Origin: Mesorhizobium hawassense
GTDB taxonomy: Bacteria; Pseudomonadota; Alphaproteobacteria; Rhizobiales; Rhizobiaceae
DNA: 64,000 bases
NCBI RefSeq assembly: GCF_003289945.1
Contig: NZ_QMBP01000002.1
Coordinates: 558,001-622,000 of the forward strand
Direction of reading: 5' to 3'
Of this stretch, positions 26,054 through 51,088 are shown one piece after another. Below the pieces are notes generated by a model that ran no database searches, had not been told where the DNA came from, and worked only from the letters and a program-made list of their open reading frames with translations. Numbering within the stretch: position 1 is the stretch's first letter; each line of letters begins with the position of its first letter. Made by a program: the position numbers and the translations under genes.

Positions 26054-26064
26054 TGGTATTACCA
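26054..26064. promoter_or_regulatory. FadR-type operator TGGT-ATT-ACCA
   Basis: The palindrome TCTGGTATTACCAAAT has the TGGT-N3-ACCA core recognised by many FadR-subfamily GntR regulators. It lies 105 bp upstream of the leftward TIM-barrel gene (start 25949). An identical core is present at 45982-45992. Confidence 0.65.
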
Positions 26065-26233
26065 AATCTCGCAACTCGGTCAAGCGCCGGAAAACCGCGG
26101 GCTAGCCATCGCACTGCGAGCAAGCACTCAAGATTATCTTATAAAATCAGTATATTGACTACGCTGCCGGGCTGCCACCGCCCAGTTCTTGCCGCGCACG
26201 AAAATTTGCTGTAGAGGTCATGATAGGCCCAAT

Positions 26234-26244
26234 TGGTCGAACCA
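26234..26244. promoter_or_regulatory. FadR-type operator TGGT-CGA-ACCA
   Basis: The palindrome ATTGGTCGAACCAGTT has the same TGGT-N3-ACCA core. It lies 107 bp upstream of the rightward TIM-barrel gene (start 26351). The identical core TGGTCGAACCA recurs at 46158-46168. The FadR-type gene of this operon (28468) is the obvious candidate binder. Confidence 0.65.
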
Positions 26245-26350
26245 GTTTCCGAAGAAATGCTGGCAGCGCCTTGGGGAGGAAACGTGCGGCCGCCTCGAAC
26301 CGAGGCGTCGTGGGGTAAATGTGACAGGCGAATTCTGGGAAGGATAGACC

Positions 26351-27238
26351 ATGCATCTTTCGACGCACAATTGGATGCGGGCGGAGCCGCTCGAGGTGAC
26401 GCTGAAGCGCATCAAGAAATTCGGCTACGAGTCGATCGAGATTTCCGGCGAGCCCGAGCAGTACAAGACCAAGGAGACGCGCGCGCTCCTGAAGGAGCAC
26501 GGCATCCGCTGCTGGGGTTCGGTGACGCTGATGCTGGGCGAACGCAACCTCGCCGCCAAGAACCAGGGCCAGCGCGAGCGGTCGGTCCAATACGTCAAGG
26601 ACGTGCTCACCATGGTGAGCGAGCTCGACGGCGAGATCATCACGCTGGTGCCCGCGACCGTCGGCAAGGTCGTGCCGGACGGCACGGAGGCTGAGGAATG
26701 GGGCTGGGTGGTCGACGCCACGCGCGAATGCTTCACCCATGCCAAGAAGGTCGGCGTCAGGATCGCCGTCGAACCGCTCAATCGCTTCGAGACCTACCTC
26801 TTCAATCGCGGCGCCCAGGCGCTGGCGCTCGCCGACGCGGTAAGCCCCGAATGCGGCGTCTGCCTCGACGCCTATCACATCCACATGGAGGAATTTAACG
26901 TCTATGACGCGATCCGCCAGGTCGGAAAGCGCCTGTTCGATTTTCATGTCGCCGACAACAACCGCTTCGCCGCCGGCCTTGGCCAGATCGACTGGCCGAA
27001 GATCGTGCGCACGCTGAAGGACATCGGCTATGACGGCGCGCTGACGAACGAATTCGTTGCTCCCGTCGACCGCACACCGGCCGCGCCCTATCCGGAGATG
27101 GTCGAGCGCAATCCGGTCGACATCTCGCCCGAGCAGCTCAAATTCATCCAGGACCACGGCTCCAGCGTGCTCACGGAGAAATTCTACACCGACCAGATGC
27201 GCATCACCGCTGAAACGCTGCTGCCGCTGATCAAGTAG
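26351..27238 (+). CDS. Sugar phosphate isomerase/epimerase-type TIM-barrel protein
   Basis: This 295-residue AP-endonuclease-2 fold protein has metal-ligand segments RIAVEPLNRFETYLF (Glu), GVCLDAYHIHMEE (Asp, His), FDFHVADNNRFAAG (His) and GALTNEFVAP (Glu). It is first of a rightward run with an enolase-superfamily dehydratase, a FadR-type regulator and a D-2-hydroxyacid dehydrogenase. These enzymes would isomerise a keto sugar and dehydrate and reduce sugar acids; the precise substrate is unknown. Confidence 0.85.
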   Translation: MHLSTHNWMRAEPLEVTLKRIKKFGYESIEISGEPEQYKTKETRALLKEHGIRCWGSVTLMLGERNLAAKNQGQRERSVQYVKDVLTMVSELDGEIITLVPATVGKVVPDGTEAEEWGWVVDATRECFTHAKKVGVRIAVEPLNRFETYLFNRGAQALALADAVSPECGVCLDAYHIHMEEFNVYDAIRQVGKRLFDFHVADNNRFAAGLGQIDWPKIVRTLKDIGYDGALTNEFVAPVDRTPAAPYPEMVERNPVDISPEQLKFIQDHGSSVLTEKFYTDQMRITAETLLPLIK

Positions 27239-27295
27239 ACCTGCGACTGAACCATCCCTTCCGCCCGACGGGCGGACGGGGGCCGAAGGGAAAAC

Positions 27296-28465
27296 ATGCG
27301 CATCAACAGCGTTCAGGCCTGGTGGGTCCGTGTCCCGATCGAAGTCGCGAAGCAGCATCGCAGCGACTTCGGTCAGGTGACGACGTTCGACGCCGCCATT
27401 TTGCGCATCGAGACCGATGACGGCCTGGTCGGCTGGGGCGAAGGCAAGAACGCCGCCGGTAGCGCCGGCAGCTATGGCGCGCTCGTCCATATGCTCAACC
27501 ATGAGATCGCACCGCAGCTCATCGGCCGCGATCCGGCCGACATCGGCGTCGTCTGGGAAATGCTTTACAACGGCGTGCGGCATGAGACGGCCGCGCATGC
27601 CGGCCACGCCATGCCGCAGCTGGCGCGGCGCGGCATGAGCGTAGCAGCGATCAGCGCCGTCGACATCGCGCTCTGGGACATCCTCGGAAAGTCGCTCGGG
27701 CAGCCGGTGTGGCGGCTGCTCGGCGGCCGCAAGGTCGAGCGCATGCGGGCCTATGCCTCAGGTGGCTGGGCCTCCACCGAGGCCATCGGCGAGCAGTTGA
27801 TATCCTACATCGCCAAGGGCGGCTTCAAGGCCTTGAAGATGCGCGTCGGCGCCATGGACGGCGCGCCGCATCTTTCGGCCGCGCGCGTGCGCGCCGCGAG
27901 GCAGGCGATCGGGCCGGATGTCGAGCTGATGGTCGACGCGCACGGCACCTACACCGTCGCCGAGGCCAAGCGCTTCATCAAGCTCACCGCCGACCTCGAC
28001 CTTGCCTGGTTCGAGGAACCGGTGATCGCCGACGACAAACCGGGCATGGCCGAAGTCCGCGCCTCGGGCTCGACGCCGATCGCCACCGGCGAAAGCGAGG
28101 CCACACGCTACGCGTTCCGCGATCTGGCGGTGCTGAAGTCGGCCGACATCTTCCAGCCGGATCCCGCCTTCTGCGGCGGCATCAGCGAGGCGATGAAGAT
28201 CGGCACCATCGCCAGCGCCTTCAATCTGCGCTTCGCCCCGCATCTGTGGGCCGGCGCGCCCTGCTTCTTTGCCGGGCTGCATGTCTGTGCCGCCTCGCCC
28301 GCCAGCTTCATCATCGAATATTCGCTCGGCGCCAACCCGATGATCCACGACCTCGTCGAGGAGACTGTCGAAGCGAAGGACGGTATGATAGCGATCCCTG
28401 AAAAGCCTGGATTGGGATTCACCATCTCCGAGCGATTCCTGGAGGCGCACGCGCAACGTATTTGA
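27296..28465 (+). CDS. Mandelate racemase/muconate lactonizing-type enzyme (sugar acid dehydratase-like)
   Basis: This 389-residue enolase-superfamily protein has its metal ligands at D214 (MVDAHG), E240 (WFEEP) and E266 (TGESE). A K-x-R pair lies at 181-183 (KMR) and the catalytic His is at 316 (FAPHLW). The capping domain occupies about residues 1-130. Enzymes with this layout usually dehydrate sugar acids such as D-galactonate, L-fuconate or gluconate; the subfamily cannot be fixed by eye. GAAGGGA at 27286-27292 precedes ATG 27296. Confidence 0.88.
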   Translation: MRINSVQAWWVRVPIEVAKQHRSDFGQVTTFDAAILRIETDDGLVGWGEGKNAAGSAGSYGALVHMLNHEIAPQLIGRDPADIGVVWEMLYNGVRHETAAHAGHAMPQLARRGMSVAAISAVDIALWDILGKSLGQPVWRLLGGRKVERMRAYASGGWASTEAIGEQLISYIAKGGFKALKMRVGAMDGAPHLSAARVRAARQAIGPDVELMVDAHGTYTVAEAKRFIKLTADLDLAWFEEPVIADDKPGMAEVRASGSTPIATGESEATRYAFRDLAVLKSADIFQPDPAFCGGISEAMKIGTIASAFNLRFAPHLWAGAPCFFAGLHVCAASPASFIIEYSLGANPMIHDLVEETVEAKDGMIAIPEKPGLGFTISERFLEAHAQRI

Positions 28466-28467
28466 CG

Positions 28468-29184
28468 ATGAAAGAAAAGAACCTTCTGGCGGAACTTGCC
28501 GCCTATCTCTTCTCCAACTCCGACAAGGAGTCCGGCCGCACCCCGTCCGAGCGCGAGCTGGCGGAGCATTTCGGCGTCAGCCGCGGCCAGATCCGCGAGG
28601 CGCTCGCCATCCTCGAGGCCATGCGCATCGTCGAGCGGCGCGCCAAGTCCGGCATCTATATCGACACCAAGCAGGCGAGTGTGGAAGCGTTGGCGCTTTT
28701 CGCCCGCGCCGGGCTGCCGCTCGACCCGGTGCAGATCTACGAGACCGTCGAGCTGCGCAAGATCCACGAGATCAAGGCGGCCGAGCTTGCCTGCTCGCGC
28801 GCCACGGAAGAAAACTTCGAACGCCTGCGCGAGATCCTGAAGGCTTCCGAAGAGCGCATCGCCGCCGGCGAAGGCCTCGCCAAGGAGGACCGCGAATTCC
28901 ACCTCGAGATCGTGCGCGCGACCAAGAACAGCGTCTTTCACAACATCTGCAGCGTCTATTACCTGATGGGCGAGCAGCGCCTGCCGATCTATTTCAACGA
29001 CCCCGAACGCAGCGTTCGCTCGCATGCCGAGCACATCCAGATCTACGAGGCGCTGCTGCGCCGCGACGGCAATCTCGCCCAGGCCTTGATGAACGCCCAT
29101 TTGCAGGGCGCCGAGAGCTACTGGAAGGGGATCATCGAAGGCCGCGGAACCGAACCGAAAAGCGCTGCTCTCGAGAAGGCTTGA
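28468..29184 (+). CDS. FadR-type GntR transcriptional regulator
   Basis: This protein has 238 residues from ATG 28468, 2 bp after the preceding stop. The winged helix is at residues 20-72 (PSERELAEHFGVSRGQIREAL, RRAKSGIYI). An FCD domain from about 85 to 225 has D/H metal-type ligands (DREFHLEIVRAT, RSHAEHIQIYEALL). It is embedded in a sugar-acid operon whose promoter region carries TGGT-N3-ACCA palindromes, the typical FadR-family site, so autoregulation plus control of the divergent operon is likely. Similar palindromes at 46.0-46.2 and 51.0-51.1 kb suggest further targets. Confidence 0.9.
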   Translation: MKEKNLLAELAAYLFSNSDKESGRTPSERELAEHFGVSRGQIREALAILEAMRIVERRAKSGIYIDTKQASVEALALFARAGLPLDPVQIYETVELRKIHEIKAAELACSRATEENFERLREILKASEERIAAGEGLAKEDREFHLEIVRATKNSVFHNICSVYYLMGEQRLPIYFNDPERSVRSHAEHIQIYEALLRRDGNLAQALMNAHLQGAESYWKGIIEGRGTEPKSAALEKA

Positions 29185-29194
29185 GCGTCTTGCG

Positions 29195-29214
29195 GCCAAG
29201 CCCATTCGCTTGGC
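29195..29214 (+). terminator. Small hairpin after the FadR-type gene
   Basis: GCCAAGC (29195-29201) pairs with GCTTGGC (29208-29214) around six bases, 10 bp after the regulator stop. There is no T-run. It is a possible mRNA-processing or weak attenuating hairpin before the dehydrogenase gene. Confidence 0.4.
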
Positions 29215-29245
29215 GTCGCAAAAATGCGGCCCGAAAGGAACCCTG

Positions 29246-30223
29246 ATGCGCAAGATCCTGTCGACGCATCCGCTGCACCCTCGCGCCACGGCAATGCTGG
29301 CCGGCGCCGGGCGGCTCGCGATCGCTTCCGCGCTCGATCCCGAAACACTGACCGCCGAGGCCCGCGACGCCGACATCGTCATCGTGCGCGCGCCGCTGCC
29401 GCCTGAGTTGTTTCAAGGCGCGGCGAATTTGCGCGCCGCGATCCGCCACGGCGCCGGGCTGGACATGATCCCGGTCGAGGCAGCGACCGCCGCCGGCGTG
29501 CTGGTCGCCAACGTGCCTGCCGTCAACGCCCGCTCGGTCGCCGAGCATGTGATGTTCGCCGCGCTGGCGCTCTCGCGGCGCTTCCGCGTGATGGACCGCG
29601 ACCTGCGCGCCAAGGGCTGGCTTGCCGGGCGCGAGCACGCCAATTCGACCAGCGAGCTCGCCGGCAAGACGATCGGCATCGTCGGCCTCGGCGCGGTCGG
29701 CCAGGCCGTCGGCCACATCGCCGCGCATGGCTTCGACCTCAATGTCGTGGCGACGACGCGCAGTCTGCGCCCGGCGCCCGAGCGCGTTGGCTTCCTGTCG
29801 ATCGACGCGCTGGTCGAGCAGAGCGACATCATCGTGCTCTGCTGCCCGCTGACGGAGGAAACACGCGGCCTGATCAGCCGCGAGCGCATCGCCCGCATGA
29901 AGCCCAATGCGCTGCTGATCAACGTCTCGCGCGGCCCGGTGGTCGACGACGAAGCGCTGATCGAAGCCTTGCGGGCGGGCCGCATCGGCGGCGCCGCGCT
30001 CGACGTCTTTTCCACCCAGCCACTGCCGTCGAACCATCCCTATTTCGGCTTCGACAATGTCATCGTCACTCCGCACATGGCCGGCATCACCGAGGAATCG
30101 ATGATGCGCATGGGCGTCGGCGCGGCGAGCGAGGCTCTGCTGGTGCTGGCCGGCAAGCTGCCGGTCAATCTGCGCAACGCGGAAGTCATCGAGCACTACC
30201 GGCGGCGGTTTCCAGCTGGCTGA
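29246..30223 (+). CDS. D-2-hydroxyacid dehydrogenase (phosphoglycerate-dehydrogenase-like)
   Basis: This protein has 325 residues from ATG 29246 (AAAGGAA just upstream). The NAD-binding motif is GIVGLGAVGQAVG. The active-site triad fits the D-2-hydroxyacid dehydrogenase family: Arg in NVSRGPVVDDEAL, Glu in the following alpha/beta segment and His in VTPHMAGIT. It ends the sugar-acid operon and would reduce a 2-keto acid, or oxidise a D-hydroxy acid, derived from the dehydratase product. Hydroxypyruvate or glyoxylate reductase activity is also possible. Confidence 0.87.
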   Translation: MRKILSTHPLHPRATAMLAGAGRLAIASALDPETLTAEARDADIVIVRAPLPPELFQGAANLRAAIRHGAGLDMIPVEAATAAGVLVANVPAVNARSVAEHVMFAALALSRRFRVMDRDLRAKGWLAGREHANSTSELAGKTIGIVGLGAVGQAVGHIAAHGFDLNVVATTRSLRPAPERVGFLSIDALVEQSDIIVLCCPLTEETRGLISRERIARMKPNALLINVSRGPVVDDEALIEALRAGRIGGAALDVFSTQPLPSNHPYFGFDNVIVTPHMAGITEESMMRMGVGAASEALLVLAGKLPVNLRNAEVIEHYRRRFPAG

Positions 30224-30265: not shown

Positions 30266-30652
30266 ATGCGCAAGAGCGCCGCGAAAGTCGTGCTGATCGC
30301 TATCTGCTGCCTGTCCGCGGCAGCAACCCGCGCCGACGCGCAAGGCAGTTTCGTGCCATGCGACAACGGCCTGCGCTGCGTGGTGGCGCCCTGTCCGTCG
30401 ACCAGCGCGCTCGACCTGGCCTCCGGCAAGGTCATCAAGGGTGTGTCGGTCGACATTGATGGCCTGCCGCAGCAGGACAAGGCGCTCGACCTTGCGGAAA
30501 AGCTCTATGCCGGCAACCTTGTCGTTGCCGGCATCATCGAGAACCGGCCGCATACCTTCAACGGTAAGCAATATAGCCTGCCGACGCTGGTTGCGACCGG
30601 CATCGAGCGGGTGTCCAGGGAAAGCGAGCGCGGACACTGCTCGGCGCGCTGA
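30266..30652 (+). CDS. Small secreted protein of unknown function
   Basis: This 128-residue protein has a signal peptide (residues 1-24, LIAICCLSAAATRADA) and a mature part containing CDNGLRCVVAPCPSTSAL, where closely spaced Cys residues precede a conserved-looking PCPS. I do not recognise the family. It stands alone between the dehydrogenase gene and the convergent amidase gene, with no obvious partner. Confidence 0.65.
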   Translation: MRKSAAKVVLIAICCLSAAATRADAQGSFVPCDNGLRCVVAPCPSTSALDLASGKVIKGVSVDIDGLPQQDKALDLAEKLYAGNLVVAGIIENRPHTFNGKQYSLPTLVATGIERVSRESERGHCSAR

Positions 30653-30668
30653 GGTTTTCAGTTCAGTC

Positions 30669-31964
30669 TCAGCCTTGCAGCAAAGTTTCCAGCGCCGCGG
30701 CGATGCCGAGAAGTCGATGATCATGCCCGTGCCTGCCCACCAGCATCAATCCGGCCGGCAGCTTCGTGCCGGGCATCGGCAGCGAGATCGCGCAGAGATC
30801 GAATTGGTTGGCGACCTGCGTGTTGCGCAAGAGCAGCCCTTCCGTCCTGTCGCGCAACGCTTCGTCGCCGGTCATGGCGGCAATCGACGGCGCGACCATC
30901 GGCACGGTCGGCAATGCCAGCACGTCGATCGTGTCAAGCCGTGCCGCCATGGTCGCCACGAGCTCGCCGCGACGGCGGATCGTGCGGATATAGGCCGAGG
31001 CGGGAACAGCCAGCGCGCGCGACAACGGCCCGGTGACGTGCGGATCGACCGGAACGGACGTGCCGCTCGCCAGCCAGTCGGCATGCACCTCGGCGCCTTC
31101 CATGGACGCGATCGTGCCGCGCCTGGTGGCCGCGCGCATCTCGGCGATGAGATCGTCGACGGGCAAATCGCCGACGCTGGCGCCGGCCTGCCCGATCCTG
31201 TCGATGCAGGCTTCGAAAGCTTCCGTAACCTCGGTTTGCGTCTCGCCGAACAGCATGCCGCGTGGAATGCCGATACGCACGCCGCCGAGCGGAACCGGCT
31301 GTAGGGCTGCCGGCTCTTCGCCCGCCATGATCGCGTCGGTGATCGCGCAGTCGGCGACGCTACGGGCAAGCGGACCGATCGAATCCAGCGTCATCGACAG
31401 CGGAAAGGCGCCCGTCAAGGGCACGCGCATCGCCGTCGGTTTGAAGCCGACGACGCCGTTGAGCGAGGCGGGGATGCGCACCGAACCACCAGTGTCCGAA
31501 CCGATCGAGATGTCGCTCGTGCCCTCGCCGACCGCAACGCCCGCTCCCGACGACGAGCCGCCCGGGATCAGGCTGGCGTCGGCGGCATTGCCCGGCGTGC
31601 CGTAATGCGTGTTGTCGCCGATCGCGGTGAAGGCGAACTCGGTCATGCTGGTCTTGCCGAGGATGACGGCGCCCGCCTGGCGCAGCCTCTGCACGATTGC
31701 CGCGTCCCGGGCCGCCGGCGCGGCGTTCGTTAGGAGGAGCGAGCCGGCGGTGGTCGGCTCGCCGGCGACGTCGAACAGGTCCTTGATCGAAACGATGCGC
31801 CCGTCGAGCGGCCCGAGGCTGACACCTGCCTTGCGGCGGGCATCGGACGCATCGGCGGCCGCGTGCGCGGCCTCGACATAGAGCTTCGAGTAGACCTTCT
31901 CGTCCGCCGCGCGATTGGCAAGACGTGACAGGATGTTTTCAAGACGATCGCGGACGGATTGCAT
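30669..31964 (-). CDS. Amidase signature family hydrolase
   Basis: This protein has 431 residues from ATG 31964. The Ser-cisSer-Lys triad is visible: Lys in VSIKDLFDV, cis-Ser in PGGSSSGAGVAVG and nucleophile Ser in DTGGSVRIPAS. Such enzymes hydrolyse amides, for example aryl or acyl amides, or act as GatA. With no gatB or gatC nearby and a shorter length than GatA, a catabolic amidase is more likely. It converges with the secreted-protein gene (16 bp between stops). Confidence 0.9.
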   Translation of the reverse strand: MQSVRDRLENILSRLANRAADEKVYSKLYVEAAHAAADASDARRKAGVSLGPLDGRIVSIKDLFDVAGEPTTAGSLLLTNAAPAARDAAIVQRLRQAGAVILGKTSMTEFAFTAIGDNTHYGTPGNAADASLIPGGSSSGAGVAVGEGTSDISIGSDTGGSVRIPASLNGVVGFKPTAMRVPLTGAFPLSMTLDSIGPLARSVADCAITDAIMAGEEPAALQPVPLGGVRIGIPRGMLFGETQTEVTEAFEACIDRIGQAGASVGDLPVDDLIAEMRAATRRGTIASMEGAEVHADWLASGTSVPVDPHVTGPLSRALAVPASAYIRTIRRRGELVATMAARLDTIDVLALPTVPMVAPSIAAMTGDEALRDRTEGLLLRNTQVANQFDLCAISLPMPGTKLPAGLMLVGRHGHDHRLLGIAAALETLLQG

Positions 31965-32082
31965 TTTCGATGTCGGGCCCTGCAAAGTTGCAACGTCTTC
32001 TAGGTACGGCCTGATGTCGGGCCGGCGAAGAGATAACCCGGCAAGCGTGCCTTTGCACCCTGCCAGCGATAGGAAGATGCTG

Positions 32083-32430
32083 ATGCTGTACAAAGGCGGC
32101 TGCCACTGCGGCAAGGTGGCCTTCGAGGTGCAGGGCGAGCTCGGCATGGCCGTGCGCTGCAACTGCTCGATCTGCGCGCGCAAGGGCGCGCTGCTGTGGG
32201 CCGTGCCACATGAGAAGCTCAATCTGGTCGCCTGGGGCGACGACCTCGGCCGCTACACATTCGGCAAGGCTCAAATCGCGCATCGTTTCTGCCGCACCTG
32301 CGGCATCCACCCCTTCGCCGAGCATGTCGGCGAAAGCGGCGAGCGGACGGCCTATGTCAACATCAACTGCCTGGACGACGTCGACATCGCCAGCATCGAA
32401 GTGTTCGAGTTCGACGGCCGCTCGGCCTGA
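32083..32430 (+). CDS. GFA (glutathione-dependent formaldehyde-activating) family zinc protein
   Basis: This protein has 115 residues from ATG 32083, with AGGAAG upstream; ATG 32077 is in frame. Zinc-binding Cys are arranged as in the GFA fold: GGCHCGKVAFEV, RCNCSICARKG and HRFCRTCGIHPF. The biochemical role of most members is unproven; some act in glutathione-linked formaldehyde metabolism. It is convergent with the SDR gene (3 bp between stops). Confidence 0.87.
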   Translation: MLYKGGCHCGKVAFEVQGELGMAVRCNCSICARKGALLWAVPHEKLNLVAWGDDLGRYTFGKAQIAHRFCRTCGIHPFAEHVGESGERTAYVNINCLDDVDIASIEVFEFDGRSA

Positions 32431-32433
32431 TCT

Positions 32434-33342
32434 CTACCGATAGCCCGTCGCGTCGGCCGGCTTGCCGGCATCCTGGATTTCAGGGACATAGCGCCAGGCA
32501 TCGGGACGCGATCCGTCGAGGTCAGTGAAGCCGTAGACTTGCGCCAGTCCGCCGCTGGACAGCGACTGGCCGTTCCAGCGCGAGTGCTCGGAGTCCGAGG
32601 CAAGTGCCACCACAGCGCGGCCGACGAAGCGCGGCGTCTCGGATATGACGAAATGCGGCACCTTGGCTGTAGCGTCGCGCCAGTTCTCCTCCCGCACGCC
32701 GAATGCCTCCAGCATCATCTCCGAGCGCAGCCAGCCCGGCGTCAGCGAGACGGACGTCGCGCCATGCTTTTCGAGGTCCTTGGCATGTGCCCAGGCCATG
32801 CGGTTCACCGCCACCTTGGCGAGATCGTAGAAGGGCGACAGCCGGTAGTGGTCGGCATTGTATTCGGCCGTGCCGTCGGTGACCTCGACGTGCAAGCCGC
32901 CCGGCTGCTCGATCATTAGCGGCAATGCGTGATGCGCGGTGATCAGATGCGTATCGATCCCAAGCCGCAGCAGCCGAAGGCCGTTTTCCAGATCGTGCTC
33001 CCAGACGGACTTGTTCCATTCGAACAGCTTCTCGCCGCCCCACAGATCGTTGACCAGTATGTCGAGCCTGCCCTGCTCGGCGCGGATACGCGCAACAAGC
33101 TGCAGAACCTCTTCGGAGACCAGATGGTCGACGCGGACGGCAATGCCCCTGCCGCCCTGCGCGGTGACCAGCTCCGCTGTCTCCTGGATGGTTTCGGGGC
33201 GCTGATAATCCGATTGCGAGGTGCGGGTCGTGCGGCCGGTGACATAGACCGTGGCGCCGGCAGCGCCCAGCTCGACCGCAATTCCACGGCCCGCGCCACG
33301 CGTTGCGCCGGCAACGAGCGCGACTTTCCCTTGAAGCCTCAT
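32434..33342 (-). CDS. Short-chain dehydrogenase/reductase
   Basis: This protein has 302 residues from ATG 33342, preceded by TTGGAGG. The NAD(P) motif is VAGATRGAGRGIA (TGxxxGIG-type variant) and the catalytic pair is Tyr/Lys in SPFYDLAKVAVNRM. Divergent from a TetR gene across an 81-93-bp gap with a clear palindrome, so probably repressed by it. The substrate is unknown. Confidence 0.88.
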   Translation of the reverse strand: MRLQGKVALVAGATRGAGRGIAVELGAAGATVYVTGRTTRTSQSDYQRPETIQETAELVTAQGGRGIAVRVDHLVSEEVLQLVARIRAEQGRLDILVNDLWGGEKLFEWNKSVWEHDLENGLRLLRLGIDTHLITAHHALPLMIEQPGGLHVEVTDGTAEYNADHYRLSPFYDLAKVAVNRMAWAHAKDLEKHGATSVSLTPGWLRSEMMLEAFGVREENWRDATAKVPHFVISETPRFVGRAVVALASDSEHSRWNGQSLSSGGLAQVYGFTDLDGSRPDAWRYVPEIQDAGKPADATGYR

Positions 33343-33397
33343 GAAACCTCCAAACTTGAACTGAGCGCAATGTGAGCTGGCGTTTGCCGCGCTCATC

Positions 33398-33425
33398 ATT
33401 TATAAATGATCGTTCGTTTATAAAT
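33398..33425. promoter_or_regulatory. Palindromic operator between SDR and TetR genes
   Basis: ATTTATAAA (33398-33406) and TTTATAAAT (33417-33425) are perfect inverses around TGATCGTTCG, giving a 28-bp site in the gap of a divergent TetR/SDR pair. It is AT-rich in a GC-rich genome and overlaps one possible ATG (33424) for the TetR gene. Confidence 0.65.
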
Positions 33426-33435
33426 GAGAGTCAAG

Positions 33436-34014
33436 ATGACCCGGCCCAAAACCCAATCCGACGAGCAGGTGCTGGAAGCCGCGTATCGGCTGATGCATGC
33501 CGACGGACCGGAAGCATTGACCTTTGAAAGGCTGGCGCAAGCCTGCGGCCTTTCAGGCTCGACGCTGGTGCAGCGCTTCAAGAACAAGGCGCTACTTAAG
33601 CAGCGCACGCTGCTCTATGCCTGGGATGGGCTCGACCGAAAGACCGAGCAGGCGGCGGCATCGGTTCCCAGAAGCCCGGCTGGCGCCGTCGAGCTGCTGG
33701 TCGCGCTCTCGCGCGGCTATGGCGACATCGAGTCCTATGCCGAAGGTCTGCTCGTCCTGCGCGAGGATTTGCGCGACCCGGCTTTGCGGGCACGTGGCGC
33801 TGCCTGGAAGGCTCAACTGAGCAGGGCGCTTGCCGCTTGCTTTGCCAATATTCCCCGCATCCCCGAGGATATCGGCCTGCTTATGGCCGCGCACTGGCAG
33901 GGCGCGCTGCTGTGGTGGAGTTTCGGCCCCGACGACATGGAGCTTACGGCCTATGTAGAGCGTAGTTTGAGGCGCTTCGTAACCGCCGTCACAATGCCGG
34001 CTCGAAACCTGTAA
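33436..34014 (+). CDS. TetR-family regulator
   Basis: This protein has 192 residues from ATG 33436; an ATG at 33424 lies inside the operator palindrome. The N-terminal helix-turn-helix is LTFERLAQACGLSGSTLVQRF (residues about 30-50), and the rest is an all-helical ligand domain. It probably controls itself and the divergent SDR gene. Confidence 0.87.
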   Translation: MTRPKTQSDEQVLEAAYRLMHADGPEALTFERLAQACGLSGSTLVQRFKNKALLKQRTLLYAWDGLDRKTEQAAASVPRSPAGAVELLVALSRGYGDIESYAEGLLVLREDLRDPALRARGAAWKAQLSRALAACFANIPRIPEDIGLLMAAHWQGALLWWSFGPDDMELTAYVERSLRRFVTAVTMPARNL

Positions 34015-34168
34015 CTGGGCGAAGGAGGGTGTGCGGGGGTTGCCGCTCCTTCATAATCGAAGCGTCAGCCACGCCGGCACGGCCGGCCTGCGGACATGGG
34101 CACAGAGATCGGCCTGCCAAATCGGACATCAGGGTCGGCAGCCGCAAAGGCTGGTTTGCGCAATGACC

Positions 34169-34182
34169 TTGACGGAGATCAA
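34169..34182. promoter_or_regulatory. FNR/FixK-type box upstream of the nitroreductase gene
   Basis: TTGAC-GGAG-ATCAA matches the TTGAT-N4-ATCAA consensus at nine of ten positions. It is 50 bp upstream of ATG 34233, a spacing compatible with activation from about -41. Oxygen-responsive control would suit an Acg-like nitroreductase. Confidence 0.55.
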
Positions 34183-34232
34183 GGACGATTTTCCGATTGG
34201 ACCTATCCTGCCGATGCGATTGATCGTGAGGC

Positions 34233-42357: not shown

Positions 42358-42575
42358 TGCCGGGCTCCCTCATGCGTCGCGGCTCCGGTTTCCTCGCTAC
42401 TGTCCGGCGCGATCTTCGACGTGATGTTGAAGCCGATCAGCCCGGCCAGGATGATCGTCACGCCGTAGGAATGCAGGTTGAGGCTCCATGGCTGGCAGAG
42501 CGCAACGATGCCCAGCACCATGAGGATCTGCGACGCCGGCAACAGGTATTTCTCGTTGATGGCGCGAAAACTCAT
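42354..42575 (-). CDS. Small two-helix membrane protein of the importer operon
   Basis: This 73-residue protein has two hydrophobic segments (YLLPASQILMVLGIVALCQP and SYGVTIILAGLIGFNI) and a polar tail. It overlaps the permease gene before it and the ATPase gene after it by four bases each, so it is surely translated with them. A small membrane protein is also present in the rhizobial glycerol importer operon (GlpU). Role unknown; assembly or regulation of the transporter is possible. Confidence 0.8.
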   Translation of the reverse strand: MSFRAINEKYLLPASQILMVLGIVALCQPWSLNLHSYGVTIILAGLIGFNITSKIAPDSSEETGAATHEGARQ

Positions 42576-43528: not shown

Positions 43529-43531
43529 CTG

Positions 43532-44437
43532 TCAGCGCTCCTTCACCTTGTTGAGATACTTCACGTAGAGGTTGGTGATGGCCAGCACCATGATCAGCAC
43601 GATGTAGGCCAGGGCGCAGGACTTGCCCGTATCCCACTGCTGGAAAGCCTGCTTGTAGAGCCTGATCGCGATCAGCTCGGCGGTCGGCTGGGTCGTCATC
43701 GTGTAGGCGATGTCGAAAGTCTTGAAGGCTTCCATGGTGCGGAAGATCAGCGCGATCAGAAGGATCGGCGAGACCAGCGGCAAGGTGATGCGGGTGAAGG
43801 TGTACCACCATCCGGCACGGTCGATCGCGGCCGCCTCGTAGAGATGCTGCGGCACCGCCGACAGGCCGGCGAGCGACAAAAGCATGACGAAGGGCGACCA
43901 CATCCAGATATCGGTGATCGCGACTGCGTAGAGCGCGCTGTCGGGATTGGAGAGCCAGGCGAAATCGCCAAGGCCGAATACGTAGTTGATCGGGCCCCAG
44001 GACGGGCTGTATAGCAGCTGCCAGAACAGGCCGACGACCGCCGCCGACATCATCATCGGCAACAGCAGGAGCGTGGTGATCAGGCCCTTCATCGGAAAGG
44101 AGCGGTTGAGCAGCAGCGCAAGGCCGAAGCCGACGATCATCTGTCCAGCCACCGAAACGATGACGTATTTCGCCGTGATGACGAAGTTCGACCAGATGTG
44201 GTCGTCGCTGAGCAGCTCGCGATAATTCTGCAAGCCGACGAACTGCCATGGCTCGCTCCGGTTCGCGGCGAAGTTCGTAAAGGAATAGCCAAGCGAGTAG
44301 ATCAGCGGAAAAATGTTGAAGACGATCAGGAAAACCAGCGTCGGGATGATGAACAGGTTGCGGATGGTCAGGTCGGACCAGCCGCGCGCGGCGGCCCTGG
44401 ACGCGGGATCGAGATTGGTAAGGGCTACCGAAGCCAA
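43532..44437 (-). CDS. Sugar ABC importer permease (MalF/UgpA-type)
   Basis: This protein has 301 residues from a probable TTG start at 44437, which follows AGGAG by seven bases; an upstream in-frame ATG (44488) falls inside a hairpin and is less likely. About six membrane segments are present, with the EAA-type loop LYEAAAIDRAGWWYTFTRITLP. It pairs with the second permease 3 bp downstream. Confidence 0.9.
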   Translation of the reverse strand: MASVALTNLDPASRAAARGWSDLTIRNLFIIPTLVFLIVFNIFPLIYSLGYSFTNFAANRSEPWQFVGLQNYRELLSDDHIWSNFVITAKYVIVSVAGQMIVGFGLALLLNRSFPMKGLITTLLLLPMMMSAAVVGLFWQLLYSPSWGPINYVFGLGDFAWLSNPDSALYAVAITDIWMWSPFVMLLSLAGLSAVPQHLYEAAAIDRAGWWYTFTRITLPLVSPILLIALIFRTMEAFKTFDIAYTMTTQPTAELIAIRLYKQAFQQWDTGKSCALAYIVLIMVLAITNLYVKYLNKVKER

Positions 44438-44456
44438 CTTTGTCTCCTGAAAACAG

Positions 44457-44490
44457 GAATGCCGGAGGGGAAAACCCTCCTCCGGCATTC
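44457..44490 (-). terminator. Hairpin between binding-protein and permease genes
   Basis: GAATGCCGGAGG and CCTCCGGCATTC pair over 12 bp (44457-44468 with 44479-44490). It lies 12 bp after the binding-protein stop. In the leftward transcript it is followed by CCTGTTTTC, so it may attenuate or stabilise mRNA, matching the hairpins after the other binding-protein genes in this window. Confidence 0.65.
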
Positions 44491-44502
44491 TGACTGTGGT
44501 GC

Positions 44503-45819
44503 TTACTTGTAGCGATTGTACTTGGTGAACGTCGCCTTCCAGTCGGCGGCGGTCTTGTCGAGGGCTTCCTGGGCGGTGCCCTTGCCGCCGACCACGAACG
44601 GATAGATGTTCTGGTTCAGCTGATCGAGCACTTCGGCGTATTCAGGTGTTGCCCAGAAGTCCTTGACCATGAACATCGTGTCGTAGAACGCCTTGTTGTA
44701 GGGCGTGGCGTTCTGGAAGGCATCCGACTTCAGCACGGCCTGGCTGCAGGTGTAGCCGCCGAGTTCGGCCCATTTCTTCTGCGTCTCGTCCTTGATGAAC
44801 CACTCGAGGAACTTCATCGCCTCGTCCTTGTTCTTCGAATACGAGACGACCGAGATGCCCTGGCCGCCGAGAGCGGCGAAGCGCTTGCCGTCCGGACCGG
44901 CCGGATTGGCGAAGAAGCCGGTGGCGTCGGCATAGGGGTTGGTGGCCTTGTTCACCAGCGGCGGGAAGAAGGCGAAGAAGTTCATGCTCATCGCGGCGAG
45001 GCCGCCAGTGATCGCCTGATTGTCTTCCACGAAGAAGGTCTTGCCCCAGCCGGGAGGCGTGAACTTGTAGAGTTCCTTGTACATGTCAAGGCCGGCTGCG
45101 GCTTCCTTGGAATTGGTGATGCCGTCGACCTTGTAGGAGGCGTAGTCGCCGAGATCGCCGCCATAGCTGAAGATGGCGCTTTCGACGCCCATCGCCATCG
45201 CGTCATAGGAATTGTCGGTGTAGATGGCGACGCCGTAGCGCTTCTGGTCCGGACGGTGGAAGAACTCGGCGATGTCGCGCAGCTGCGCATAGGTCGTCGG
45301 CACGGCGAGGTCGTAGCCGTACTTCGCCTTGAAGGCTTCCTTCTCCTTCGGGTCCTCGAACCAGTCCTTGCGGTAGGACCAGCCGATCGCGTCGCCTTCC
45401 AGCGGGATCGCCCAGTACTTTCCGGAACCGCCGGGATATTCGGCATAGTATTTGATGGTCGCCGGCGCCATCACGTCGCCGAGCTTGTGCTGGTTGAAGA
45501 AGTCGGTCAGGTCGACATAGTGGCCCTGCGTCGAACCGGCGCCGAGCCATTGCGAGTCGCCGACCACCATGTCGTAGGCGTCGCCATGTGCGTTGAATTC
45601 GGTGAAAGCCTTGGTCTGGAAGTCAGGCCACGGCGTGGTCTGAACCGTGACCTTCACGCCGGTCTCGGCCGTGTAGTCGTTGACGAGTTCCTGCAGATAG
45701 TTCGCCGGATCCCATTCCGCCCAGAAGATGGTGAGTTCCTTGTCCTGCGCGCGGACGGATGTCCCGCAGGCAAGCGCCAGCCCGATACCAGCAATCACGC
45801 TGGTCACTATCTTGCGCAT
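44503..45819 (-). CDS. Sugar ABC importer binding protein (family 1)
   Basis: This protein has 438 residues from ATG 45819, behind GGGAGG. A signal peptide ends near GTSVRAQDKEL. The mature part is a family-1 binding protein (LTIFWAEWDPANYLQELVND, VVGDSQWLGAGSTQGHYVDL). It starts a six-gene leftward operon, binding protein-permease-permease-small protein-ATPase-ATPase. Two TGGT-N3-ACCA palindromes lie upstream. The substrate is unknown; a polyol or sugar is likely from the subunit composition. Confidence 0.9.
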   Translation of the reverse strand: MRKIVTSVIAGIGLALACGTSVRAQDKELTIFWAEWDPANYLQELVNDYTAETGVKVTVQTTPWPDFQTKAFTEFNAHGDAYDMVVGDSQWLGAGSTQGHYVDLTDFFNQHKLGDVMAPATIKYYAEYPGGSGKYWAIPLEGDAIGWSYRKDWFEDPKEKEAFKAKYGYDLAVPTTYAQLRDIAEFFHRPDQKRYGVAIYTDNSYDAMAMGVESAIFSYGGDLGDYASYKVDGITNSKEAAAGLDMYKELYKFTPPGWGKTFFVEDNQAITGGLAAMSMNFFAFFPPLVNKATNPYADATGFFANPAGPDGKRFAALGGQGISVVSYSKNKDEAMKFLEWFIKDETQKKWAELGGYTCSQAVLKSDAFQNATPYNKAFYDTMFMVKDFWATPEYAEVLDQLNQNIYPFVVGGKGTAQEALDKTAADWKATFTKYNRYK

Positions 45820-45981: not shown

Positions 45982-45992
45982 TGGTATTACCA
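45982..45992. promoter_or_regulatory. FadR-type operator TGGT-ATT-ACCA
   Basis: ATCTGGTATTACCAATT is identical in its core to the palindrome at 26054-26064. It is 163 bp upstream of the binding-protein start (45819). It points to shared control of the importer and the TIM-barrel operons. Confidence 0.65.
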
Positions 45993-46157
45993 ATTTCAGC
46001 GTGGCGTCAAGCGCTTTCTTGAAGCGTCAGCAGCAGCCAGACAAGCCAAACATTGCGATATCTGTCTGTTTTACCTTGTTTTTCCTACTCCTTGATATGT
46101 ATGGCCCTTGCGATGGCCGGCTCACCACAGTTAACATTCAAGACTGCTTGCGTAATC

Positions 46158-46168
46158 TGGTCGAACCA
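46158..46168. promoter_or_regulatory. FadR-type operator TGGT-CGA-ACCA
   Basis: The perfect flanks ATC and GAT extend the palindrome to AATCTGGTCGAACCAGATT, the longest example in the window. The core equals that at 26234-26244. It sits directly after the TetR stop codon (46172), 176 bp from the site at 45982. Confidence 0.65.
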
Positions 46169-46171
46169 GAT

Positions 46172-46867
46172 TCAGGTGATTGCCGCCTTCGACGCCGCCG
46201 CCATTCCTGCCGATTCAACCCCCGATTCCGCCATCGCGGCGCGAACCAGCGCGCCCGCCGCCCATTGCGCCACCGACATCATCTCGGCGCTGTCCAGCCC
46301 CCAGATATCCTTCAGCACCGTCACCACCTCGACGCCGAACATCAGCGACAGCGCCTGGGCCAGACGTCTGAACTGGCGCGGCTTCAAGCGGCACTTGAGC
46401 GGCGCGATCGCATCTTTCAGCAAGTCGACGCGATGGCCGCGGGTGAAGGCTGGTTCGGATCCGAGCGTGCCCGCCTGGCGCCGCGCCCATTGATCGAGCG
46501 ACAGCTTCAGCGCCGCCTTGAACGTCGCCTCGAAGGCCTCGATGCGCGGCATCGCTGTGGCAAACAGATCCGCGACGCGCCGCTCGGCATCGTTCGACGC
46601 GGATTTCCAGGTGAGGATAGGGCCAAGCCCCTCATCGACCACGGCCTGCACCAGCGCCGCCTGGCTCGGGAAATACCGGTAGGCGGTGGCGCGCGAAACT
46701 TCCGCCGCCTCCGCGACCTCGCTGACCGAAGGCGTCATGCCGGACTGCATCAGCCGCGTCGCCGTTTCCAGCATCAGCCGCCTGGTGCGGGCGCGCGCGC
46801 CCTTCTCGACGGCCGGCGCCCGGGCGGCTTCGTCATTGAGGGCGGCTTGTTGACGTGAGACATCCAT
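46172..46867 (-). CDS. TetR-family regulator
   Basis: This protein has 231 residues from ATG 46867. The helix-turn-helix SVSEVAEAAEVSRATAYRYFPS is at about residues 47-68; the rest is a helical ligand domain. It is divergent from the UPF0261 gene with about 200 bp between, which contains a near-palindrome around ACGCGCGT (46876-46889) and two 48-bp direct repeats. It probably controls the UPF0261/TIM-barrel/cupin operon. Confidence 0.85.
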   Translation of the reverse strand: MDVSRQQAALNDEAARAPAVEKGARARTRRLMLETATRLMQSGMTPSVSEVAEAAEVSRATAYRYFPSQAALVQAVVDEGLGPILTWKSASNDAERRVADLFATAMPRIEAFEATFKAALKLSLDQWARRQAGTLGSEPAFTRGHRVDLLKDAIAPLKCRLKPRQFRRLAQALSLMFGVEVVTVLKDIWGLDSAEMMSVAQWAAGALVRAAMAESGVESAGMAAASKAAIT

Positions 46868-47067: not shown

Positions 47068-48264
47068 ATGGGACGCATCTATGTGGTCGGCACCGCCGAC
47101 ACCAAAGGTGAGGAACTCGCTTTCCTGGCCGATGCCGTCGCGAGGGCCGGCGGCGCGGTCGCTCGTGTCGATATCGGCATGCGCGGCGCGACCGTCCCCG
47201 TGGATATCGCCGCGAGCGAGGTTGCCGCGCATCATCCCAAGGGAGCCAGCGCGGTTCTCGGCATCGATGATCGCGGTGCCGCCGTTGCCGGCATGGGCGC
47301 CGCCTTCGCCAATTTCATCCGGTCGCGCGACGACGTCGCCGGCGTGATCGGAATCGGCGGCGGCGGCGGCACTTCGATCATCACCGCCGGCATGCGCGCC
47401 CTGCCGCTCGGCCTGCCGAAGCTCATGATCTCGACGCTCGCCTCCGGCGATACCGCGCCTTACGTCGATGTCTCCGACATCATCATGATGCCGTCGGTCA
47501 CCGACATGGCGGGGCTCAACCGGCTCTCGCGTGTCGTGCTGCACAACGCCGCCCAGGCGATCGCCGGCATGGCGGCAAAGCCGGCCCCGGCCACCGCCGG
47601 CAAACCGGCGCTTGGACTGACCATGTTCGGCGTCACCACGCCCTGCGTGACCGCGATCGTCGAGCGCCTGCGCGCCGACTATGACTGCATGGTCTTCCAT
47701 GCTACCGGCACCGGCGGCCGTTCGATGGAAAAGCTCGCCGATTCAGGCCTGCTCGCCGGCGTCCTCGACATCACCACGACCGAGGTCTGCGATTTGCTGT
47801 TCGGCGGCGTGCTTCCGGCGACAGAGGATCGCTTCGGCGCCATCGCCCGCACGAAGCTTCCCTATGTCGGCTCGGTCGGCGCGCTCGACATGGTCAACTT
47901 CTGGGCACCCCCCACGATCCCCGAGCGCTACCGCGGGCGGCTGTTCTATGAACACAATCCCAATGTGACGTTGATGCGCACCACGGCCGAGGAATGCCGC
48001 CGGATCGGCGAATGGATCGGCGGCCGCCTCGCCCGTTGCGATGGCCCGGTCCGTTTCCTGATCCCGGAAAAGGGCGTGTCGGCGCTGGATATCGAAGGCG
48101 GCGCCTTTTTCGACGCTGAGGCCGATCAAGCGCTGTTCGACGCTATCGAGCGCACGATCAAGCCGACCCGGAACCGCACCGTGACGCGCCTGCCGCTGCA
48201 CATCAACGATCCCGCATTCGCCACGGCCGCCGCCGAGGCTTTCCTCGACATCGCCAACACGTGA
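47068..48264 (+). CDS. UPF0261 / Tm-1-like ATP-binding domain protein
   Basis: This protein has 398 residues from ATG 47068; an ATG at 47035 adds 11 residues. The start [16 protein letters not shown] is the family hallmark. Gly-rich segments [20 protein letters not shown] and [20 protein letters not shown] follow, with [14 protein letters not shown] and a C-terminal [12 protein letters not shown]. The family corresponds to the N-terminal part of tomato Tm-1, which blocks tobamovirus replication; the bacterial role is unknown. The adjacent gene matches the C-terminal half of Tm-1, so the two products probably work together. Confidence 0.88.
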
Positions 48265-48275
48265 GACCGACAAGC

Positions 48276-49115
48276 ATGGCCGCCATTCCGCGCAAAAAGA
48301 TCCTTGAAAAATTCCGCAAGATGATCGCCGACGGCGTGCCGATCGTCGGCGGCGGCGCCGGCACCGGCCTGTCGGCCAAGGCCGAGGAAGCCGGCGGCAT
48401 CGACCTGATCATCATCTACAATTCCGGCCGCTACCGCATGGCTGGACGCGGTTCGGCCGCCGGCCTGCTCGCCTATGGCAACGCCAACGAGATCGTCAAG
48501 GAGATGGCCTATGAGGTGCTGCCGGTGGTGAAAAAGACGCCGGTGCTGGCCGGCGTCAACGGCACCGACCCCTTCGTCATCATGCCGCTGCTTCTCGCCG
48601 AGCTGAAGACGATGGGCTTTTCCGGCGTGCAGAACTTTCCGACCGTCGGCCTGTTCGACGGCACCATGCGCCAGAGTTTCGAGGAGACCGGCATGGGCTT
48701 CGGTCTCGAGGTCGACATGATCGCCGAGGCGCACAGGCTCGACCTGTTGACGACCCCCTATGTCTTCAATCCGGACGAAGCGCGCGCCATGACCAAGGCC
48801 GGCGCCGACATCGTCGTCGCCCATATGGGCGTCACCACGGGCGGCTCGATCGGCGCCACGTCGGCGAAAACTCTCGACGCCTGCGTCAAGGAGATCGACG
48901 CCATTGCCGATGCCGCGCGCTCGGTGCGCAAAGATATCATCCTGCTTTGCCATGGTGGGCCGATCTCGATGCCGGACGACGCGCGCTACATCCTGGAGCG
49001 CTGCAAGGACCTGCACGGCTTTTATGGCGCAAGCTCGATGGAACGGCTGCCGGCCGAAGCGGCAATCGCTAGGCAGACGGCGGATTTCAAGGCGATGACG
49101 AAAAGGAAGGGATGA
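48276..49115 (+). CDS. TIM-barrel signal-transduction/PEP-hydrolase-like protein (Tm-1 C-terminal type)
   Basis: This protein has 279 residues from ATG 48276, 11 bp after the UPF0261 stop. The TIM-barrel segments [49 protein letters not shown] and [19 protein letters not shown] fit the family annotated as PEP-hydrolase-like or TIM-barrel signal transduction. It resembles the C-terminal domain of Tm-1. A lyase or hydrolase role on a small keto acid is plausible but unproven. Confidence 0.85.
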
Positions 49116-49119
49116 AGCT

Positions 49120-49536
49120 ATGGCCGACAAGAGCAAGGTGTTCGTCTATCCGAAGGACGTCAGCGCCTTCGGCTTCGACTGGGGCAGGCTGGCCCTTACC
49201 GTTGCCCCGGAAGTGAACGGCGCCGAACGCTTTTCCGGCGGCGTCGTCGACCTGCCGCCGGGCAAGGGTCACACTCGCCACAATCACCCCGGCGCCGAGG
49301 AGATCATCTTCGTCATCTCCGGCAATGGCGAGCAAATGGTCGAGGACGAGAAGGGCAATCCGGTGGTGGCCAAGGTCGGTCCCGGCTGCACCATCTACGT
49401 GCCGGAAAGTCGCTTCCACTCGACGCTCAACACCGGCGACCAGCCGATGCAGTTATTCGTCGTCTATTCGCCGGCAGGACCCGAGCTTGCACTCCGGGAG
49501 CTACCGGATTTCAGGCTGCTGCCGGCTGGCAAGTAA
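49120..49536 (+). CDS. Cupin-domain protein of the Tm-1-like operon
   Basis: This 138-residue single cupin has metal-type His/Glu in GKGHTRHNHPGAEEIIFVIS and a later His in ESRFHSTLNTG. It starts 4 bp after the TIM-barrel stop with GAAGG upstream, so it is co-transcribed with the UPF0261 pair. The function is unknown; it could isomerise or bind the small acid handled by the pair. Confidence 0.85.
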   Translation: MADKSKVFVYPKDVSAFGFDWGRLALTVAPEVNGAERFSGGVVDLPPGKGHTRHNHPGAEEIIFVISGNGEQMVEDEKGNPVVAKVGPGCTIYVPESRFHSTLNTGDQPMQLFVVYSPAGPELALRELPDFRLLPAGK

Positions 49537-49712: not shown

Positions 49713-50906
49713 CTAAGCTGCTACCCCACCCCGGTTCCAGCCTCTGCCCCGATCGCCAAACATCACATAGCCGGCGTCGGTCACCGCGACCGTGTCCTCC
49801 AGCTTGATGAAGCCGCGCGTCGGGTGGAGCATGGTCGTCTCGACCGACAGCACCATGTTCTTTTCCAGCGGCTTTGCCGCATAGGTGCCCTCATAGGCGA
49901 CCGGATGGTTCGTCATCAGGAACGGCGCCTCATGCGTGATCAGCCCCATGCCGTGGGCGAAGAAATCCGTATAGGGCGCCACCTTGGAGGCCTTCAGCAC
50001 ACCCTCCGCATGCGAAATCATGTCGCCGCCCAGCGCACCGGCCTGGACCTTGGAAAAGGCCGCCTGCTGCACGGTCTCGACTTCGGCCAGCAGATCTTCC
50101 AGTTCGGCATCCGGCTCGCCGAGCACGCCCATGCGGCAGAGATCGCCGATATAGCCGTGATAATTGCCGCCGGAATCGATCGACAGCACCTCGCCCTTCT
50201 TCCACGCCTGGCCTGACGAAGCGCGGTTGTGGCTGGAGCCCAGCGTCAGCAGGCAATATTCGAAATGCGCGCCGCGATTGGTCTCCTCGCGCCTGAGCTG
50301 CTCGATGATATCGGCCTTGGTCGTGCCCTCGCGCGCCCATTGAATGGTCGCCAGCATGGAATCGGTGATCAATTCGGAAGCGATGCGCAGCTGTTCCAGT
50401 TCGGCCTCGGACTTGATGGCGCGCATGGTCTCCAGCATGCCGGTGGCGTCGATCAGCTTCGCATCCGGCAGCGCCTTGCGGATCAACGTATAGGCGTCCG
50501 ACGGCAGGAAGCCGGGTTCGATGCCGATGCGGGCGGCCGACTTGCCGATCTTGCGCAAATGCTCCACCGCAAGATTGGCGGCGTCGAGCGTGCCCCAGCA
50601 GGCGGCGTGCAAGGTCGGAGTCCAGAACGGATGGTTCTGGTGCTCGCCGCCTTCCATCTTGTTGCCGATATAGGCGGCGTGTTCCGGCCCGCCCTTTTCA
50701 TAAAGAACGATCGGCAGATAGCGGCTGTGGCCGATCGCGTCCATGGCGGCAAAGAAGATGAACTTGTAGCCGCCGAGCAGATATTGCGTGTTGTGCTTGG
50801 AGGTGGCGAAGAGCACGTCGATGCCGGCTTCTTCCATCAGCCGGTCCACCCGCGCCTGGTCGAACGGAACGCTGCTGACTTCGGTTTTGCCCGGAGCGAT
50901 GTTCAT
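49713..50906 (-). CDS. M24-family metallopeptidase (Xaa-Pro dipeptidase/creatinase-like)
   Basis: This protein has 397 residues from ATG 50906, behind AGGGAG. The pita-bread metal ligands are visible: D244 (LSIDSGGNYHG), D255 (YIGDLCRMG), H319 (AHGMGL), Glu in VLSVETTM and Glu in KLEDTVAV. It may cleave X-Pro peptides or a peptide-like compound. It is divergent from a peptide-type ABC importer with TGGT-N3-ACCA palindromes between, so uptake and cleavage of one substrate is likely. Confidence 0.87.
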   Translation of the reverse strand: MNIAPGKTEVSSVPFDQARVDRLMEEAGIDVLFATSKHNTQYLLGGYKFIFFAAMDAIGHSRYLPIVLYEKGGPEHAAYIGNKMEGGEHQNHPFWTPTLHAACWGTLDAANLAVEHLRKIGKSAARIGIEPGFLPSDAYTLIRKALPDAKLIDATGMLETMRAIKSEAELEQLRIASELITDSMLATIQWAREGTTKADIIEQLRREETNRGAHFEYCLLTLGSSHNRASSGQAWKKGEVLSIDSGGNYHGYIGDLCRMGVLGEPDAELEDLLAEVETVQQAAFSKVQAGALGGDMISHAEGVLKASKVAPYTDFFAHGMGLITHEAPFLMTNHPVAYEGTYAAKPLEKNMVLSVETTMLHPTRGFIKLEDTVAVTDAGYVMFGDRGRGWNRGGVAA

Positions 50907-50914
50907 CTGCCTCT

Positions 50915-50952
50915 CCCTATCTTCATCGGCCGCCCCTATCTTCATCGGCCGC
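50915..50952. repeat. Perfect 19-bp tandem duplication at the M24 gene start
   Basis: CCCTATCTTCATCGGCCGC occurs twice without a gap (50915-50933 and 50934-50952). The first copy overlaps the ribosome site of the M24 gene (AGGGA in the leftward sense). It looks like a recent duplication. Confidence 0.9.
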
Positions 50953-51012
50953 AAGAGCGCCGAAAGTCATGATTGATGGCTGTCACTCAAATCTGCATCA
51001 TTTTGGCCACTC

Positions 51013-51023
51013 TGGTCCAGCCA
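51013..51023. promoter_or_regulatory. Weak FadR-type operator TGGT-CCA-GCCA
   Basis: TCTGGTCCAGCCAGA resembles the TGGT-N3-ACCA sites but has GCCA in the right half. It is 65 bp from the strong site at 51078 and 107 bp upstream of the M24 start, the same distance as the site at 26234 from its gene. Confidence 0.4.
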
Positions 51024-51077
51024 GAACCGATCACTTTCGCGCTGAGCGCGCTTTCATGAACCAACTTAGCTACAATC

Positions 51078-51088
51078 TGGTCTTACCA
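51078..51088. promoter_or_regulatory. FadR-type operator TGGT-CTT-ACCA
   Basis: ATCTGGTCTTACCAGAT is a perfect 7-bp-arm palindrome around a 3-bp centre. It lies 162 bp upstream of the peptide-binding protein start (51250), almost the same distance as the site at 45982 from its binding-protein gene (163 bp). Confidence 0.65.

Follow-up and report, generated by a model that had tools for sequence, protein, structure and literature searches.

Six operator-like sites in the window, the whole 64,000-nucleotide stretch analysed here (G000:C2:558001-622000 of a 7.33-Mb Mesorhizobium genome), accompany a leftward TIM-barrel operon, a rightward TIM/enolase/gntR operon, a six-gene ABC importer and a gene for an M24-type protein. 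Judged from their sequence, these sites are very probably operators, and a GntR/FCD protein encoded at 28468-29184 is very probably the protein that reads them. Taken as a whole, it appears likely that the sites are operators of this GntR/FCD repressor, which would jointly switch uptake and catabolism. The sites and the proposed regulator are:

26054-26064, predicted operator of class A, TGGTATTACCA, at the promoter of the leftward TIM-barrel operon
26234-26244, predicted class B operator TGGTCGAACCA, directly 3' of the rightward promoter
45982-45992, predicted operator of class A, TGGTATTACCA, covering the expected -10 position of the importer promoter
46158-46168, predicted auxiliary operator of class B, TGGTCGAACCA, upstream of the importer class A site at a spacing of 176 bp
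51013-51023, predicted weak operator TGGTCCAGCCA (7/8), before the M24 gene, such a 7/8 partner being kept in 5/5 Mesorhizobium loci
51078-51088, predicted operator TGGTCTTACCA, between the M24 gene and a peptide-importer gene
28468-29184, plus strand, GntR/FCD (FadR-subfamily) regulator and proposed site reader, with Pfam GntR and FCD domains and an almost invariant recognition-helix region

A scan of the window finds five exact TGGTNNNACCA cores, at 26054, 26234, 45982, 46158 and 51078, and a sixth site at 51013 that carries 7/8 core bases. A preliminary description of this DNA had reported these six positions, the identity of the cores across loci (26054 with 45982, 26234 with 46158) and spacings of 180 bp (26054/26234) and 176 bp (45982/46158) within the pairs, all of which we confirm. 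All six sites are intergenic according to both the open reading frame lists and a codon-usage gene model; only 3 bp lie between the 46158-46168 site and the tetR gene, whose stop end is at 46172. Five exact cores compare with 0.23 expected in the window, an approximately 20-fold excess that 0 of 100 shuffles reach. Across the 7.33 Mb of the genome there are 43 exact cores, and the window, 0.9% of that length, contains five. The perfect 17-bp palindrome ATCTGGTN3ACCAGAT is present at 46155-46171 and 51075-51091, and is matched with two mismatches at 26051 and 45979 and with three at 26231 and 51010. As for the possibility, raised beforehand, that the motif is common throughout the genome, the full palindrome proves rare: its 15-bp form TCTGGTN3ACCAGA has exactly two genome copies, both within the window. 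The reversed core is commoner genome-wide than the core TGGTNNNACCA itself (147 versus 43); the core may be rare because stray operators are avoided, or simply through codon composition.

Conservation and promoter context of the sites

The paired sites are retained within the genus. Among named genome records, 80 matches to the GntR protein were kept, 78 of them labelled Mesorhizobium and the other two only 'Alphaproteobacteria' and 'Bacterium'; the best match, from M. atlanticum, is 100% identical. The TIM-barrel site pair is found in 79/79 scorable Mesorhizobium-type loci (of 80), with a spacing of 180 bp in 77 and of 181 and 172 bp once each. Additionally, the importer pair stands at 176 bp in 5/5 Mesorhizobium-type loci scored (13 of the 80 reached the importer, five with enough flank).

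Beyond the genus, a regulator ortholog is detected in 69 of 297 family genomes and 30 of 109 genera (E<=1e-60; 55-99% identity), and we compared its surroundings in 37 of the 64 regulator-positive genomes outside Mesorhizobium, picked to span 28 genera. The TIM/enolase/gntR operon has a pair of sites in front of it in 37/37, exact in 32 and with one mismatch, in the gene-proximal site, in the remaining five. Likewise, the importer carries two sites in 22/22 scored regions from 17 genera, 17 exact and five whose distal site carries one mismatch; one-mismatch partners were sought after the fact, and a chance 7/8 match is expected at approximately 0.12 per 300 bp. Alignment columns around the sites have a mean conservation of 0.41-0.46, and the value of 1.0 for the core holds by construction because the rows were chosen by exact core; what is informative is the low value of the flanking columns, together with the site counts. 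The importer genes (at least 60% identity) lie within 16-20 kb around gntR in 28/37 of these loci. On S. meliloti pSymA (strain ml47, L308), on R. etli CFN42 p42f (L340) and in R. johnstonii (L342), the cluster is unbroken; both importer sites and the class A site in front of the TIM gene match exactly, and the gene-proximal TIM site has one mismatch. S. meliloti 1021 (L339), with its regulator ortholog at 738 kb of pSymA, has the same sites, and the S. meliloti importer has the same gene layout as that of the window. The check put forward in the preliminary description, conservation upstream of orthologous operons, comes out in favour of the sites in other genera.

The sites fall into two classes that occupy distinct positions. 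Class A reads TGGTA-n-TACCA, while class B mostly reads TGGTTnGACCA in one orientation, and on the way to the importer, as on the way to the leftward TIM gene, class B comes first, then class A, then the gene. A CTTGAC element lies 12-13 bp before class A in 22/22 importer regions and 13-14 bp before it in 30/37 other-genus TIM regions, a distance that places class A over the expected -10 position of the predicted promoters. In the opposite direction, toward TIM/enolase/gntR, the pattern TTGC-N17..21-TA[GC] is found 18-21 bp before class B in 27/32 other-genus exact-pair loci. No TTGC-type promoter element was seen beside the importer class B site on inspection by eye, so class B there looks like an auxiliary operator. 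The promoter elements of the window are:

26079-26084, minus strand, CTTGAC, -35-like, leftward promoter (composite match G000:C2:584054-584084)
46006-46011, minus strand, CTTGAC, -35-like, importer promoter (composite match G000:C2:603982-604011)
26189-26217, plus strand, predicted promoter TTGCCG-N17-TAGAGG of the TIM/enolase/gntR operon

We propose that a GntR/FCD dimer would bind the TGGT-N3-ACCA palindromes, and that class A sites, lying over the -10 position, would block RNA polymerase at the leftward TIM-barrel and importer promoters. Class B sites lie directly 3' of the TIM/enolase/gntR promoter and, at the importer, would serve as an additional operator upstream of the main one. Because gntR is encoded inside one of the proposed target operons, the GntR/FCD protein would also control itself. 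A pathway metabolite, probably an acid sugar, would release the repressor, so that uptake and catabolism would be induced jointly. In Mesorhizobium, the parts of the cluster would have moved apart with their operators kept; in many relatives, the importer and the gntR operon are neighbours.

DNA looping between paired sites, as suggested earlier, is not needed at the TIM pair, since each TIM operator stands at its own predicted promoter. Phasing of the TIM regions reaches p 0.001, but nearly all spacings are one inherited 180-bp value. At the importer, the class B-class A distance is 165-190 bp in most loci, 65 bp in two and 99 bp in G032. Exact importer pairs, taken one per genus, give R 0.47 with a nominal Rayleigh p of 0.024 at 10.5 bp, and after addition of the five one-mismatch partners R is 0.30 with a jitter-test p of 0.14. 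Spacings from 32 TIM regions and 22 importers entered the jitter test; that of G032 (99 bp) was left out, and for L170, which has two candidate weak partners, the one at 171 bp was taken. The phasing signal at the importer is weak, and looping there is no more than possible.

The regulator and rival readers of the sites

The 28468-29184 product matches Pfam GntR at 44.8 bits (cut-off 27) and FCD at 85.5 bits (cut-off 24.3). These are the N-terminal GntR winged helix-turn-helix and the C-terminal FCD domain that define the FadR subfamily, to which the preliminary description had rightly assigned it; in line with this, predicted operators of the TGGT-N3-ACCA type lie near the regulator and its targets. 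GntR and FCD alone are matched in Pfam at E<=1e-5, and FadR_C is not. The recognition-helix region is almost invariant in the 37 other-genus orthologs, and D143, H147, H188, H191 and H213 are invariant; an Asp/His metal-binding set is typical of many FCD domains. NCBIfam returns matches to the NanR, LldR, UxuR, GlcC, ExuR and PdhR models, the best at 98 bits against a cut-off of 260, and scores so far below the family cut-offs indicate that the regulator is none of these. It also has sequence matches in the PDB to PdhR and NanR chains.

The composite CTTGAC-N10-15-TGGTNNKACCA occurs in 74 of the 297 genomes, specifically in 68/69 with the regulator versus 6/228 without it (Fisher p 9e-59). The sole regulator-positive genome lacking it, G043, is a 76%-complete assembly. 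G089, which has the composite and orthologs of TetR, TIM3 and M24 with no regulator found, consists of approximately 770 contigs, so the regulator may simply be missing there. Operators are also kept at targets remote from the regulator gene, as expected of a regulon: at the importer of the window, in G165, where the importer with both sites lies approximately 80 kb from gntR, and in G032, where it lies with both sites on another contig (1.9 Mb). Further draft genomes carry a second composite on a separate contig, which may or may not belong to an importer.

Several observations weigh against the assignment of the sites to this repressor. CTTGAC is absent from 7/37 TIM regions, the rightward promoter pattern is missing in 5/32 loci (four of these hold the most diverged regulators), and no exact site precedes M24 in 11/25 other-genus loci. 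TIM3 is found in the same 69 genomes as the regulator plus G089, as is M24 (at least 54% identity). Because the targets are inherited with the regulator, the association between composite and regulator is confounded, and co-occurrence cannot single out this FCD protein. In no intact genome does the regulator occur apart from its main targets, and the link between regulator and sites therefore rests on position and co-inheritance. Additionally, a second GntR/FCD protein of the genome (G000:C13:192527-193030) has its own TGGTCCAACCA site upstream, at C13:193095 (L251), so that the core is not private to the 28468-29184 regulator. A different DJ-1/PfpI gene adjoins this C13 gene.

The C13 protein also bears on an alternative that we regard as unlikely, namely that all or part of the sites are read by another FCD/GntR paralog. 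The genome holds 14 matches related to the regulator, corresponding to at least 13 further proteins besides it, and the C13 paralog shares the core; however, in all 37 other-genus loci the sites precede the gntR ortholog's own operon. A weak rival as reader is the TetR-type product of 46172-46867, a gene beside the importer. Its gene adjoins the importer operators in many genomes and is found in 63/69 GntR-positive genomes as well as in G089, yet six genomes with GntR and the composite (G013, G057, G116, G244, G258 and G262) give no TetR match at E<=1e-40. Four of these are 99% complete, and G244 and G262 are 83% complete. In G057, tetR is missing between the importer and the UPF0261 gene, and both exact sites remain. 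Since sites are kept in six genomes without a detected TetR, we rejected TetR as the reader, and the motif itself is of the FadR type. Chance is the least credible explanation of all. Loose matches to the 17-mer are indeed common (286 in the genome at up to three mismatches versus 214 for the reversed control), which makes tolerant matching uninformative for finding regulon members, and 19 of the other 38 exact cores fall in predicted coding DNA under a simple codon-usage gene model. Against chance, the sites are conserved in 28 other genera amid diverged intergenic DNA, and a control set of 52 upstream regions from a site-free DJ-1 subclass contains no exact core.

Target genes and the putative pathway

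The genes around the sites are:

22723-25955, minus strand, leftward operon: xylose-isomerase-like barrel, Gfo/Idh/MocA oxidoreductase, second barrel
26351-30223, plus strand, rightward operon: barrel, MR/enolase dehydratase-like protein, gntR, 2-hydroxyacid dehydrogenase
40151-45819, minus strand, six-gene sugar-type ABC importer (two ATPases, small open reading frame, two permeases, solute-binding protein at 44503-45819)
46172-46867, minus strand, TetR-type regulator (Pfam TetR_N), the rival reader
47068-49536, plus strand, UPF0261, PEP-hydrolase-like barrel and cupin genes
49713-50906, minus strand, M24/creatinase-type protein

Approximately 10 kb of unrelated genes (30266-40131; amidase, SDR, MFS, AraC-like and others) lie between the gntR operon and the importer, and phosphonate-type ABC importer genes (18274-22565) directly adjoin the leftward TIM operon.

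The preliminary description had the regulator link three loci. Conserved pairs support this for the TIM/enolase operons and the importer, and at the third locus, described as M24/peptide importer, the link follows the M24 gene and is partly conserved, leaving the divergent peptide importer as a candidate member. Specifically, M24 has a strong site with a 7/8 partner 65-75 bp away in 5/5 Mesorhizobium loci, and in other genera one exact site within approximately 90 bp of its start in 14/25 loci (30 genomes examined, of 75 that gave a match). Approximately 36.5 kb before the window, a DJ-1/PfpI gene (G000:C2:520850-521467; L273:3348-3968) is preceded by two exact sites 74 bp apart and, by its sequence, is a probable fourth target, another FCD regulator being also conceivable. 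At least one site is present in 30/30 Mesorhizobium DJ-1 loci examined and two in 24/30. In the 297-genome set, an exact site precedes DJ-1 genes of at least 83% identity in 22/28 regulator-positive versus 0/2 regulator-negative genomes (p 0.06), and a less similar subclass has none in 24 regulator-positive and 28 regulator-negative genomes; these DJ-1 counts leave out L370 (G235). The R. etli DJ-1 gene beside M24 was considered as an ortholog of the Mesorhizobium gene and rejected, as it is 80% identical and groups with the site-free subclass.

Assignments of the enzymes are to broad families. The xylose-isomerase-like barrels are near D-psicose epimerase and IolO (Pfam/NCBIfam), the others belong to the Gfo/Idh/MocA, acid-sugar-dehydratase-like enolase, 2-hydroxyacid dehydrogenase, UPF0261, PEP-hydrolase-like, cupin and M24 families, and none of ten proteins tested reaches an NCBIfam cut-off. 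The dehydratase-like enolase, the 2-hydroxyacid dehydrogenase and the FCD domain suggest that the pathway is probably one of acid-sugar catabolism. The UPF0261, PEP-hydrolase-like and cupin genes adjoin M24/TIM3 in many loci. A core scan finds no TGGT-N3-ACCA site before the UPF0261 gene in the window, and this gene may be controlled by TetR.

A broader proposal, which we offer tentatively, is an acid-sugar catabolic regulon distributed across the Rhizobiaceae and built on an oriented two-operator module (class B, approximately 165-190 bp, class A on the -10 position), in which the importer class B site might loop cooperatively and the UPF0261/PEP-hydrolase-like pair, the cupin and the M24-fold enzyme might be steps of one pathway. 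Such a scheme would join UPF0261, the PEP-hydrolase-like barrel, the M24-fold protein, the cupin, the IolO-like barrels and the MR/enolase dehydratase in one putative pathway, which Mesorhizobium shares with R. etli and with S. meliloti, where it lies on pSymA. With one switch for this putative pathway, a single promoter fusion would suffice to screen for inducer and substrate. The loci also offer a clear case of operators retained while a gene cluster scatters.

Comparison with known systems

The predicted regulon appears to be new, and its regulator and operator type are of an already known kind. The literature searched, with most subscription papers outside its coverage, yielded no report of the regulon. 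A GntR gene of R. leguminosarum important in pea nodules (PMC7950203) and GntR genes of S. meliloti (PMC11387232), as given in the accessible portions of these papers, could not be tied to the regulator.

The FadR-subfamily regulator resembles E. coli FadR in combining a GntR-type helix-turn-helix with a TGGT-N3-ACCA operator. Unlike in E. coli FadR, the C-terminal domain is FCD rather than FadR_C, the acyl-CoA-binding domain of that protein, and the targets are sugar-acid-like genes rather than fatty-acid genes. The E. coli FadR fad operator is given as ATCTGGTACGACCAGAT in the available part of PMC7372789, and 46155-46171 read on the minus strand differs from it at 1/17 bases; in the part of PMC3534715 at hand, the E. 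coli operator letters occur only inside a primer. With PdhR, NanR, LldR, GlcC, UxuR and ExuR, FCD regulators of organic-acid use, the regulator shares the same two domains, whereas its gene neighbourhood differs from theirs. LacI and GalR exemplify two-operator repression with an auxiliary distant site. Similarly, the importer would have a main promoter operator and a distant auxiliary one, although the protein family is another, and neither phasing nor a higher oligomer is firmly indicated here.

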